Positions 2,058-58,230 of a DNA stretch of 64,000 bases are shown here, in pieces (position 1 is the first letter of the stretch; every line of letters begins with the position of its first letter). The translations under genes were made by a program, and so were the position numbers. The notes beneath the pieces are model-generated. The model saw nothing but the letters and a program-made list of their open reading frames with translations. It was not told the origin of the DNA and made no database searches. Source of the DNA: Agathobaculum massiliense (GTDB taxonomy: Bacteria; Bacillota; Clostridia; Oscillospirales; Butyricicoccaceae); assembly GCF_900291975.1 (NCBI RefSeq), contig NZ_OMPN01000001.1, positions 1,054,001 to 1,118,000 on the forward strand, in the 5' to 3' direction.

Positions 2058-3050
2058 TTAACGTTTCTGATCGCGGATGGTCGACAGGATGACCGCCACG
2101 ACAATGATCGCGCCTTTGAGCATCAGCTGCGGATAATTCGGCACATTCATGAGATCCAGGATGTTGTTGATAATACCCAAGATAAACACGCCGATGACCA
2201 CGCCGGAAACATTGCCCGACCCGCCCGAAAAGCTGACGCCGCCGATGACGACCGAGGCGATCGCGTCCATGTCCAGCCCCTCGCCGCTGTTCGGCGCGCC
2301 CACGCCGAGGCGAGCGGTCAGCAGAATGCCGCCGAGCGCGCAGCAGAACGCCGAGAATGCGTAAGGGAACACCTTCCATTTGGCGACGTTGATGCCGCTG
2401 AGCTTTACCGCCTCTTCATTGCCGCCGAGCGAATACAAGATGCGGCCGACTACGGTAAAGCGCATCAGCAGAAACGTCACGGCGATCATCAGCAGCCAGA
2501 CAAGGCAGATGACCGGCACAGGGCCGAGCGTTCCCGAGCCCAGCCAGAACATGAAGTCCGCACCCAGCGTCGCTTTCCACGAGATCGGCACGGCCTGCGT
2601 GTACCAGTAGGCCACGCCGCGCGCGAAGCTCATCATGCCGAGTGTGACGATAAAGGGCGCGATGCGCAGACGCGCCACGATCAGGCCGTTAAAGCAGCCG
2701 ATCAGCGTGCAAATCAGCATGGTCGCCAGAATGGCGATGCCAACCGGCAGATTCTGCATAAAGCCCGCCACCAGCACGCCTGACACCGCGACGACCGAGC
2801 CAACGCCCAGATCGATGCCGCCTGTCAGAATGACGACGAACATACCCATAGCGACGACCATATTGAGCGCGACCTGCACCACCAGGTTGGACGCGTTCGG
2901 TTTGGACAGGAATACCGGCGAAATACAAGACGCGATCACGATCATCAGCAGCAAAACGACGAGCGGGATGGCCTGTTCCTTAAAATATCTCTTGACGCCC
3001 TGAAAAGCCGTATTCTTCTTTGGCGCCGCCTGCACTGTTTTTTCACTCAT
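2058..3050 (-). CDS. Ribose-type ABC transporter permease (RbsC family)
   Basis: 330 residues with an N-terminal cytoplasmic stretch and about eight to ten membrane helices. The segment GMFVVILTGGIDLGVGSV is the hallmark of the RbsC/XylH/AraH permease family (BPD_transp_2), and GGVSFSGGSGNVSG lies in the conserved cytoplasmic loop. It forms the membrane channel of a sugar importer together with the ATPase at 3047-4534 and the lipoprotein at 4626-5744. Its ATG overlaps the stop of the ATPase gene (ATGA, 3047-3050), which indicates translational coupling. Confidence 0.93.
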   Translation of the reverse strand: MSEKTVQAAPKKNTAFQGVKRYFKEQAIPLVVLLLMIVIASCISPVFLSKPNASNLVVQVALNMVVAMGMFVVILTGGIDLGVGSVVAVSGVLVAGFMQNLPVGIAILATMLICTLIGCFNGLIVARLRIAPFIVTLGMMSFARGVAYWYTQAVPISWKATLGADFMFWLGSGTLGPVPVICLVWLLMIAVTFLLMRFTVVGRILYSLGGNEEAVKLSGINVAKWKVFPYAFSAFCCALGGILLTARLGVGAPNSGEGLDMDAIASVVIGGVSFSGGSGNVSGVVIGVFILGIINNILDLMNVPNYPQLMLKGAIIVVAVILSTIRDQKR

Positions 3051-55853: not shown

Positions 55854-56927
55854 CTATTTGAATATTTTGATCGTCCCCTGCTCATTGAGGTAGCGTAGCA
55901 GCGACAGGCCAATCGGGAACCCGAACAGGCCGACCACGCCGAACAGCTGTGCGCCGAGGAACAGACTCGCAAGCGTCGCCACCGGATGCAGGCCAAGCTG
56001 GCTGCCCACGATCTTGGGTTCGATGATATTGCGGATGATCGTGACCACGATATATACCGCGAACAGCGCCAGCGCGAGCTTGAACTCGCCCTGTATCGCC
56101 GTGATGGCTGCCCATGGGATCATGATGCCGCCTGTACCGAGCACGGGCAGGATGTCAAAGACCGCAATCAGCAGCGCAATCACCACCGCGTTTTCGATCC
56201 CGACGACCGTCAGGCCGATGGACAGCTCTACAAATGTGATCGACATGATGAGCGCATACGAACGGATGCAGACGAACAGCGTACCTGTGACATAGGTCTT
56301 GATCTCCCAAAACACCTCCTGCGCCTTTTCGCTCATCTGACGGATAAAGAAACCGGTGATGCGGTCGTAGTCCATAGCGATAAAAAACGTGGAAATAATC
56401 ATGAGCAGGAGCTTGATGAACAGCCCGGGCAGGGAACCCGCCAAGCTGTACAGCACGCTGATCGTTCCGGCGGACAGGCTGGACACCAGCTGGCCGAGCG
56501 ATTCCACGAACTGCCCCCAGAGTTGTTCCAGGGAAGCGATCAGAGATTCGTCAATACTCAGGACGGACTGCTCAATTCCGCTGAAAATGCTCATGAGCAC
56601 AGGCTCCACCCGCGCGGTGTAAAAGCCGGGCAGCCCACGCAGGAAGTCTCCGGCAGCGGAAAACGCCTTGATCCCCAGCAGCGCCAGTAGCAACCCAATG
56701 GTGCAGTAAAATACCAGCACCAGCGCGATCGCCGCCGCTTTCCGGCTGATATGCAGCTTATGCGAGGCAAAGCGGATCGGCCGCTTGAGCAGGTAGGCAA
56801 GCACGAAGCCGATCACGAACGGCGCGAGCAGCGGCAGCGCGTATTTGAGCAGCACGACCGCGAGCAGCAGCATGATGCCGAAATACAGGGTATTGACGAT
56901 AAACGTTCTTTTTTTATCCAGATTCAT
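55854..56927 (-). CDS. AI-2E family transporter (YtvI/PerM-like)
   Basis: 357 residues from ATG 56927 (GGGAG seven bases upstream). About eight helices: two at the N-terminus (IMLLLAVVLLKYALPLLAPF, IGFVLAYLLKRPIR), one near 75, then a long loop, and a bundle at 200-340 (LFLGAQLFGVVGLFGFPIG). The family includes TqsA, YtvI of sporulation and Na+/H+ antiporters; no substrate can be given. It lies behind a strong promoter and a structured leader ending in a terminator (56963-57136), so its expression is probably regulated by RNA. Confidence 0.9.
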   Translation of the reverse strand: MNLDKKRTFIVNTLYFGIMLLLAVVLLKYALPLLAPFVIGFVLAYLLKRPIRFASHKLHISRKAAAIALVLVFYCTIGLLLALLGIKAFSAAGDFLRGLPGFYTARVEPVLMSIFSGIEQSVLSIDESLIASLEQLWGQFVESLGQLVSSLSAGTISVLYSLAGSLPGLFIKLLLMIISTFFIAMDYDRITGFFIRQMSEKAQEVFWEIKTYVTGTLFVCIRSYALIMSITFVELSIGLTVVGIENAVVIALLIAVFDILPVLGTGGIMIPWAAITAIQGEFKLALALFAVYIVVTIIRNIIEPKIVGSQLGLHPVATLASLFLGAQLFGVVGLFGFPIGLSLLRYLNEQGTIKIFK

Positions 56928-56962
56928 GGAAACACTCCCAGCCGCGCGCAGGGCAGACAACA

Positions 56963-57101
56963 GAAAAAGGCATGCCCCACCGCCCCTTCCTCCAAGGGGA
57001 CAGGTATGCCTTGCTTACTCCTTATCGGTGTGGTTTACTGTTCGTCCGCAGGATTGTCAGCGGTGTCATTCCTGGTTTATGCGGTCCCTTTCGCGGCATT
57101 T
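56963..57101 (-). ncRNA. Structured leader RNA with terminator, candidate riboswitch of unknown class
   Basis: About 140 nt from a perfect promoter to a long stem (about 56969-57010, outer arms GGCAT/ATGCC) followed by TTTTTCT, 36 bases before the AI-2E gene. The 5' ATGCCGC can pair with GCAAGGCAT near the end; that pairing uses the same GGCAT that forms the 5' arm of the terminator, the classic anti-terminator arrangement. Inside are CCGC/GCGG and AGGA/TCCT stems and two copies of TAAACC. I compared from memory with 6S, SRP, T-box and the common riboswitch classes and found no match. Confidence 0.55.
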
Positions 57102-57107
57102 TTCCTT

Positions 57108-57136
57108 ATTATAGCGGCGGCGTCCCTCCCTGTCAA
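57108..57136 (-). promoter_or_regulatory. Perfect consensus promoter of the structured leader
   Basis: Minus-strand TTGACA (57131-57136), 17 bases, TATAAT (57108-57113). Confidence 0.9.
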
Positions 57137-57228
57137 CCGAAGGCGGACAATATTAACCGCATCTTAACGGCCGGACGGCATGTCGCCGCACAAACAGGAA
57201 AGGCGCGGATGCCCCGCGCCTTTTCCGC

Positions 57229-58230
57229 TTATTCCATTCTTCCGCTCAGGTGCATGACACTTCCCGTCAGCGCCTGTCCGGAGTGACCCAGCCGCGTGAA
57301 TACCTCGGCCGGCACCCAGCTCACGCCATCCACTTCGTAGGAGGCCGCCCCCAGCGCCAGGCCGCTGCCGCCGTCGCCCAAGCTGTACCGGTCCTCTCCC
57401 AGCCGGATATCCGCTGCGGCGCTTCCGTCCAGTGAGAGCCGAACGCTCTCATCCACTCCATCCCAGGATACGGTATAGCCCAGCGCCTCCGCGACCGCGC
57501 GCACCGGCACCATCGCCACGCCATTTTCCACACGGCCCTGCGCGATTGCAATATCGCCGCCAGTCAGGATGGTAAACGTCCGGTCCTGCTGGGGCAGAAG
57601 CACGACTTTCTGCGCGGCCGTCTGCCCGGGCATGGACAACGCCACGATGTCATACCAAGCGACGACCGTTGCCCCCATATGCAGGTCCGCGGCCTCCGCC
57701 GCCTCGCCATACAGCGTCTGCACCGGCGTCTGCGCGTCCACGCTGACGACCAAACCCGCGTTATCGGTCAGGAAGCGCACCGTTTCATCGCGATACAACA
57801 CCTCCACATCCAGCAGGTGCGGCGTAACGCCCTCGTCCGGATGGGTGACGACCAGTTCCGCATGGGTCTGCGGCGGGATGCTTCGGGTCATCTCCGGCTC
57901 ATAGGTGACAAGCAGGGTGTCACCGGTTTGCAGCGCGTCTGTCTGGCCGCTTACATCGGTCATACGCTTTACCGTGCCATCCCGCGCGTCCGCCAGAAAG
58001 GTATCCTCGCCCAGCATGAGCGTCAATTCATCCCAGGTGTCGGTCTTAACGGTGATCCGCGGCACCAGCGTGATATCCCCCTCATGAACCGAGGTATGCA
58101 CCTCCACGATCTCCGCCTGCTCCGTGATCCGATAGGGCTGCGGCTGGTATGGCTCTGCGGGCTGTTCCGCCGCGCCTGCGGCCGTCCCTAGCAGCATCGC
58201 GCCAAGAACGCCTGCTATGATTCTCTTCAT
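57229..58230 (-). CDS. Secreted protein with copper amine oxidase-like N-terminal (stalk) domain
   Basis: 333 residues. A signal peptide (AGVLGAMLLGTAAGAAEQ) is followed by about 200 residues of beta-rich sequence of unknown family and a C-terminal Cu_amine_oxidN1-type domain (MVPVRAVAEALGYTVSWDG, then VRLSLDG and VDGVSWVPAEVFTRLG). Despite the name, the domain has no oxidase activity and is common in exported Clostridia proteins, perhaps binding wall or metal. ATG 58230 with AGGAGGAG upstream. Stands alone between the S9 terminator and the structured leader. Confidence 0.82.
   Translation of the reverse strand: MKRIIAGVLGAMLLGTAAGAAEQPAEPYQPQPYRITEQAEIVEVHTSVHEGDITLVPRITVKTDTWDELTLMLGEDTFLADARDGTVKRMTDVSGQTDALQTGDTLLVTYEPEMTRSIPPQTHAELVVTHPDEGVTPHLLDVEVLYRDETVRFLTDNAGLVVSVDAQTPVQTLYGEAAEAADLHMGATVVAWYDIVALSMPGQTAAQKVVLLPQQDRTFTILTGGDIAIAQGRVENGVAMVPVRAVAEALGYTVSWDGVDESVRLSLDGSAAADIRLGEDRYSLGDGGSGLALGAASYEVDGVSWVPAEVFTRLGHSGQALTGSVMHLSGRME

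Follow-up and report, generated by a model that had tools for sequence, protein, structure and literature searches.

The leader that precedes an AI-2E family gene in a 64-kb stretch of Agathobaculum massiliense DNA (the whole stretch is here called the window) raises the question of what decides whether transcription continues into this gene. The original prediction was a riboswitch of a yet unrecognized class. The features on which our analysis of the locus is based are as follows.

57108..57136, minus strand: sigma-A/70-type promoter TTGACA-17-TATAAT with 12/12 consensus matches, identical in 4/4 Agathobaculum orthologues.
57079..57092, minus strand: purine-rich Shine-Dalgarno (SD)-like element GAAAGGGACCGCAT, which in an alignment with L021 to L024 is better conserved than any other leader part outside the terminator.
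57022..57099, minus strand: alternative longer frame MPRKGPHKPGMTPLTILRTNSKPHR from an ATG near the 5' end (57099); the four orthologues have no ATG there.
57022..57069, minus strand: candidate leader open reading frame (ORF) MTPLTILRTNSKPHR of 15 amino acids, with its ATG at 57069 (+32, within the +28 to +40 of other leaders) and a TAA at 57024-57022.
56964..57012, minus strand: intrinsic terminator AAGGCATACC ... GGGGCATGCC TTTTT, an inverted repeat whose helix is compensated across five Agathobaculum leaders.
55854..56927, minus strand: gene for an AI-2E (UPF0118) family membrane protein of 357 amino acids (Pfam PF01594, E = 4.1e-41).

The host genome comprises 3.2 Mb in two contigs. With 141.7 bits against PF01594 (gathering cut-off, 34.3), the encoded protein belongs to the AI-2E family, and its gene starts with an ATG at 56927, 36 nt past the T-run of the terminator. 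Reported functions of family members are export of autoinducer-2 and Na+(Li+)/H+ antiport, the antiporter group being described by signature residues in motifs A to D (PMC7221264). Compared by eye, without an alignment, to the motifs as given in that source, the protein has the D and R of motif A, the D of motif C, and one R, the E and the K of motif D; K and Q of motif B are replaced by R and Y. In the same comparison, IRNIIEPKIVGSQLGLH differs from the antiporter motif IRRTVEPKVMGxxIGLS at the second R and at S. When the 24 other genomes of the genus were searched with the protein, four of them proved to have an orthologue, with 79 to 82% identity (loci L021 to L024), and a further AI-2E search of the same genus, with matches in 5 of 25 genomes, added nothing.

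Analysis of the promoter boxes on the minus strand revealed TTGACA at 57136-57131 and TATAAT at 57113-57108, separated by a 17-nt spacer, so that the perfect consensus promoter claimed originally was confirmed at 57136-57108. Shuffling of a 2.8-kb region yielded a mean of 0.8 promoter-like sites with at least 9 of 12 matches. The transcription start was inferred from the −10 element, as for all other leaders, and lies at about 57101 in the window, which gives a leader of ~138 nt from this start to the terminator. An inverted-repeat search placed the terminator arms at 57012-57003 (5' arm, AAGGCATACC) and 56976-56967 (3' arm, GGCATGCCTT) and the T-run at 56968-56964. This hairpin went unreported in two scans, one of which gave a shorter pairing within the terminator. 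The predicted succession of leader, strong terminator, and transporter gene 36 nt further on held at all coordinates checked. Folding of the 140-nt leader gave −36.6 kcal/mol compared to −37.97 kcal/mol for shuffled sequences (z = +0.38), i.e., no better than chance, and the first 105 nt likewise carried no signal (z = −0.19). Taken by itself, the window rises clearly above chance only in its promoter, and the weight of the terminator comes from its conservation in relatives. With a promoter, then a conserved intrinsic terminator, and then the AI-2E gene, the locus has the layout of a transcription attenuator and is predicted to be one.

A putative RNA polymerase pause consensus was noticed by eye in the terminator arm and is not used in the argument below. 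A second inverted repeat with 17-nt arms (82% complementary) is located at 57192-57230, upstream of the AI-2E promoter. It lies between this promoter and a gene for a copper-amine-oxidase-N-domain protein (57229-58230, minus strand) and is likely the terminator of the latter.

The four Agathobaculum orthologues retain the TTGACA-17-TATAAT promoter, a GAAAGGAACCGCAT-like element, and a terminator of the AAGGCATACC...ATGCCTTTT type, which in L022 is altered to AGGACAT...ATGTCCT, a compensated change. RNAalifold analysis of the five Agathobaculum leaders found compensatory changes in 8 of 22 predicted pairs, and all eight are within the terminator. The second helix it returned, a hairpin of 4 bp, is doubtful: one change gives a wobble pair, three cells are broken, and compensation is absent. 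From the start-codon region to the terminator, the leaders vary in sequence and length, and the distance between ATG and terminator differs by up to 19 nt. When 60 related genomes were searched at the DNA level with the leader, the window was the sole match (1/60). The leader is too short and too diverged for such a search, since four of the 60 genomes hold an orthologue with a recognizable leader.

How does the riboswitch prediction fare against these data? Its individual observations are correct: AUGCC (57099-57095) can pair with GGCAU (57010-57006), extended by two GC pairs past a 2-nt bulge, so that a competing 5' stem would exist on paper in the window, and the two TAAACC motifs are located at 57079-57074 and 57037-57032. 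In the frame starting at 57099, both motifs read as AAA-CCA codons. In the alignment, neither the ATGCCGC stem nor TAAACC is found in any of the four Agathobaculum orthologues, and the search for covarying stems in the aligned upstream regions ended with compensation in the terminator helix only. The statement that the leader matches no known class proved right: a search of 56500-57500 against Rfam at E values up to 10 gave eight lines, with no riboswitch, T-box, or 6S RNA among them, and the whole 64-kb window gave no match at gathering thresholds. Two of these lines overlapped the leader, ctRNA_p42d (17.1 bits; threshold, 50) and HOTTIP_3 (6.6 bits; threshold, 50). A linker variable in sequence and length, together with the absence of stem and TAAACC in the orthologues, is unlike a riboswitch aptamer. 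The original prediction was to be dropped if the leader proved not to be conserved before homologous genes, and such a lack of conservation was found in the proposed aptamer, whereas promoter and terminator recur upstream of some homologues. Given the missing Rfam match, the missing fold signal, the loss of stem and motifs in 4/4 orthologues, and the terminator as the sole covarying helix, the riboswitch reading is not supported and should be set aside unless experiments free of ribosomes revive it.

Two known RNA classes were also considered. T-box leaders are characterized by a Stem I with a specifier and by a T-box sequence ahead of an antiterminator. A GGAACCGC-like string of the orthologues suggested this class, which was rejected because there was no Rfam T-box line at E values up to 10 and because the string sits ~20 to 25 nt from the inferred start, leaving no room for Stem I. 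A 6S RNA was rejected for lack of a match to a 6S model, both in the region at E values up to 10 and in the whole window at gathering thresholds.

Furthermore, we analyzed whether the layout exists upstream of other AI-2E genes. The survey covered the best 80 of 146 homologous loci, with upstream sequence for 79 (L071 has none), and 19 further loci were also inspected, several of which repeat genes of the 80-locus set. Promoter-leader-terminator sequences were picked by eye in the 330 to 340 nt upstream, helped by a terminator scan that missed L021, L024, and L031 and shortened the stems of others. The layout was seen by eye in 16 of the 79 loci, which together with the window, L102, and L115 makes 19 sequences; it was unseen within 330 nt in the other 63 of the 79 (from the best 80 of 146). 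These sequences come from Clostridia and Bacilli and were sorted into 11 groups. They represent Agathobaculum, Eisenbergiella, Enterocloster and relatives, Flavonifractor An100 with RGIG3015, Murimonas, Acetobacterium and a similar genome, Trichococcus, and an unclassified Clostridia isolate. Independence of the groups is incomplete, as two Eisenbergiella and two Enterocloster-type loci are counted apart. The near-duplicates L036 (of L035) and L077 (of L070) were dropped from the 12-leader and 17-leader counts and from the group tests given below.

Additional searches extended the set slightly. A class-wide protein search at E 1e-100 matched 3 of 391 genomes, including that of the window, and returned L101 without and L102 with a leader. 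The genus (4/5 genomes matching) and family (4/40) of L101 provided L103 to L105, none with a leader; L105 has one internal TAG in its AI-2E frame, which is absent from three genus relatives. The genus of the L029 genome (8/17) yielded one more leader locus, L115, and its family (11/397) no additional leader by eye. In the family of Trichococcus (4/76), two more Trichococcus leaders were found. A viral scan found nothing.

Several observations made by eye in this survey are recorded here. In the Lachnospiraceae locus L027 (CE91-St56; 2671-3000), a long inverted repeat, GGAACAAAATGGCCTTCCGCC ... GGCAGAAGGCCATTTTGTTCC, is present in the 330 nt before the gene and may be a small mobile element that takes the position of the leader in relatives. 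In L029, L031, L035, L036, and L066, a GCC-containing discriminator (AGGCC, AAGCC, or AGCC) directly follows TATAAT and might reflect start-nucleotide or stringent control. The related leaders of L069 (Acetobacterium) and L102 share NRFSDYLRSGFVNNRM, which is read across a terminator-like hairpin, AAACCGTTTTTCAG...GAGCGGTTTTGTT; their upstream starts differ. Several sequences carry a TGCCCGAA-like motif mid-leader, in differing frames.

Most of the leaders contain a candidate short ORF. An ATG lies at +28 to +40 from the inferred start in 14 of the 19 leaders (12 without L036 and L077), and the frames of these 14 have their stop between −12 and +85 relative to the terminator 5' arm, i.e., they reach or cross the terminator. 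In the window, the stop is 12 nt ahead of the arm. The stop overlaps the AI-2E start codon in L021, L024, and L035/L036 and begins 4 nt before it in L023. Examples of the predicted peptides are MDDEFGDTVPKNKYLIQFTA (L029), MEDADRNAALNYNFTQKSEQ (L031; stop 1 nt before the arm), MQFDCADPAARNKCIIE (L022; stop 4 nt before the arm), and MEDEPGERPIINFIGSLFVMPKLNYIKIYTSFNYCRP (Trichococcus L077; stop inside the arm). An SD-like match of −2.5 kcal/mol or lower accompanies 13 of the 14 ORFs (L069, −1.5). For the ATG at 57069, the duplex of the SD-like element with the anti-SD amounts to −4.1 kcal/mol; the four orthologues reach −5.9, and the ATG of the window is displaced by four alignment columns relative to theirs.

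To what extent these ORFs exceed chance was assessed with two tests. The strict test demanded an ATG at 22 to 43, an SD energy of −2.5 or lower, at least eight codons, and a stop at or beyond −13, with thresholds set after inspection; it was passed by 13 of the 19 sequences (failures: L048, L115, L066, L069, L102, and L097) and by 7 of the 11 groups compared to 1.0 expected from dinucleotide shuffles. None of 200,000 simulated draws reached seven groups. The loose test accepted ATG, GTG, or TTG starts (GTG and TTG penalized by 1 kcal/mol) and ORFs that had 10 or more codons and came to within 15 nt of the arm, and compared the best SD energy with shuffles. Combined by Fisher's method, it gave P = 0.010 with the first member of each group and P = 0.0055 with the median member. 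Single values ranged from 0.002 to 1.0, and by first member, only Eisenbergiella tayi (0.002) fell below 0.05. The ORF of the window alone was not above chance (P = 0.33).

Composition and divergence of the ORFs were examined next to these tests. The chosen frame is open up to the terminator in 12/12 leaders (by choice), the other two frames in 5/12 and 2/12. Purines make up 66%, 55%, and 40% of codon positions 1, 2, and 3, and G occurs 66 times at position 1 versus 47 by phase permutation (P = 0.0016). Among residues 2 to 12 of the 12 leader ORFs, D and E occur 25 times in frame compared to 2 and 10 times out of frame, an enrichment that may merely reflect G-first codons; proline (11 in frame versus 15 and 9 out of frame) is not enriched. 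Across four Trichococcus species, the 37-codon frame is free of indels while its flanks contain them. In the peptide, no residue changes within MEDEPGE, SLFVMPK, or the final RP, four codons vary synonymously only, and the residue changes in 17 of 21 varying codons, so that the frame appears to be kept more than the peptide sequence. Among the four Agathobaculum orthologues, codons with nonsynonymous changes outnumber synonymous ones in 6/6 pairs. Codon-phase bias and the indel-free Trichococcus frame support that the ORFs are coding, but conservation of the peptides is poor.

We also searched for an antiterminator. In 17 leaders, the terminator 5' arm paired with the sequence upstream of it no more than in shuffles: P values of the duplex energies ranged from 0.09 to 0.99 (window, 0.17), and sequestration of the arm, calculated from partition functions, gave combined Fisher P values of 0.17 for the 17 leaders and 0.34 for the five Agathobaculum leaders. 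Sequestration in the window was 0.57 versus 0.33 in shuffles (P = 0.10). The lowest P values belonged to L048 (0.02) and L097 (0.03), which both fail the leader-ORF test and might be under control of another kind. A model in which a ribosome masks the arm directly would need no antiterminator.

The 5' arm itself is more fixed than its 3' partner. Among 13 AGGCAT-type terminators (L021 to L026, L029, L031, L035, L048, L066, L115, and the window), 12 have the core GCAT, and the 3' base opposite its last T is A in nine and G in four; at the position facing the first core base, variation on the 3' side is limited to 2 of 13. The pattern GGCAT...ATGCCTTTT with 14 to 50 nt in between occurs eight times in 593 kb, seven of them in AI-2E leaders (L035/L036 being near-duplicates), where the 593 kb are the loci around AI-2E genes plus the window and not random genome. 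This may reflect ancestry or a further role in binding.

Taken together, these results make an attenuator gated by translation of the leader ORF the best reading, and we give it an even chance of being right. From the placement of the ORFs we infer that their translation, and the position of the ribosome, would decide on termination. The strong promoter would start transcription, which by default would end at the terminator, with another 36 nt to go to the AI-2E gene. A ribosome translating the leader ORF, which has 15 codons in the window, would reach the 5' arm of the terminator and, sitting there, block pairing of the hairpin, so that transcription would run into the AI-2E gene. If initiation or elongation on the leader ORF failed, the terminator would form. 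The signal would presumably be something that alters translation of the leader, e.g., ion status, translation inhibitors, or starvation.

Similar principles are known from other bacteria. In Salmonella and E. coli, the leader peptide MgtL, which has an acidic N terminus and precedes a transporter gene, reportedly acts by intrinsic ribosome destabilization. Several AI-2E relatives likewise have acidic N termini (MEDEPGE, MDDEFGD, and MEDADRN). In contrast, the peptide of the window, MTPLTILRTNSKPHR, has no acidic residue, and the terminator of the AI-2E leader is intrinsic. The vmlR leader of Bacillus subtilis also combines a short upstream ORF with an intrinsic terminator before the gene, with read-through decided by ribosome position; as described, its ORF encodes a tripeptide and lies in an anti-antiterminator hairpin, and the antiterminator is separate (PMC9226507), whereas antiterminator pairing was not found in the AI-2E leaders and their ORF extends up to the terminator or across it. 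The same source reports that B. subtilis RNA polymerase outruns the ribosome, so that a pause would be needed in the leader-ORF model (PMC9226507). Masking of the arm agrees with the report that a ribosome coupled to the polymerase prevents formation of an intrinsic terminator hairpin (PMC5021804), a study described for E. coli, polyproline codons, and EF-P, whereas the AI-2E leader is known here from sequence. The leaders uORFC-6-1 (hflX) and uORFC-8-2 (cysS) are comparable in having a short ORF before one gene family (PMC8632094). As presented there, uORFC-6-1 differs by its conserved peptide motif and by a structure that covaries and lies downstream of where the ORF starts; apart from the terminator, the AI-2E leader showed neither; the main text of this article does not mention AI-2E (PMC8632094).

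Leader translation has to be weighed against simpler explanations. A plain leaky attenuating terminator, its strength set by NusA/NusG or by how fast the polymerase moves, with incidental leader ORFs, would account for promoter and terminator being common to all 19 sequences (which were chosen for it), for the six sequences that fail the leader-ORF test, for the poor conservation of the peptides, and for a loose-criterion P of only about 0.01. We consider it rather unlikely in view of the 7 of 11 groups that pass the strict test where 1.0 is expected, the codon-phase bias (P = 0.0016), the similar position of the ATG across leaders, and the stops that overlap the AI-2E start in L021, L024, and L035/L036. 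The fixed 5' arm could instead be the target of a protein or small RNA that prevents (or stabilizes) the hairpin. Retention of GCAT in 12 of 13 terminators while the partner of its last T is A or G (nine and four cases) agrees with such a factor, as do the seven of eight GGCAT...ATGCCTTTT occurrences (593 kb; L035/L036 near-duplicates) in AI-2E leaders. No binding partner is known, however, the terminator sequences differ in Trichococcus and Acetobacterium-type leaders, the 3' side opposite the first core base varies in only 2 of 13, and the conservation could be due in part to common descent, which makes this distinctly unlikely.

A ligand-binding riboswitch of unknown class could draw on the pairing of the 5'-end AUGCC with the terminator arm and on the sequestration values of the window (0.57 versus 0.33; P = 0.10), L048 (0.02), and L097 (0.03). 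We regard it as very improbable, as Rfam returned no riboswitch line, the fold is no better than that of shuffles, stem and TAAACC are absent from the orthologues, the compensated helix is that of the terminator only, and 17 leaders show no pairing excess (Fisher P = 0.17). Hardly credible is an independent terminated small RNA, e.g., of the 6S type, that lies ahead of the gene by chance: the perfect promoter and the terminator do delimit a transcript of ~138 nt, but no 6S line appeared at E values up to 10, its internal sequence is not conserved, and the layout stays beside AI-2E genes across several genera.

Attenuators with a leader ORF are a known kind of regulator, of which AI-2E would be a new case; among the matches listed in the open-licence literature, no report of a leader attenuator or riboswitch for AI-2E genes was found. 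Extending translation-gated attenuation beyond the window, we speculate, with little confidence, that Clostridia and Bacilli share a widespread, unrecognized system in which a leader peptide that evolves fast and is often acidic controls the transporters of a single AI-2E clade: through a ribosome that masks a terminator with an unusually fixed 5' arm, the cell would gauge how well it can translate a difficult N terminus. If true, low ions or translation stress would be read as in intrinsic ribosome destabilization, and the peptide would be free to drift, since only the arrival of the ribosome at the arm would count. The physiological role of most AI-2E proteins is open, and a conserved attenuator hints at a condition in which the gene is needed. 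Gating by a leader ORF would shift the search for the signal to translation stress and ionic conditions instead of a metabolite ligand.
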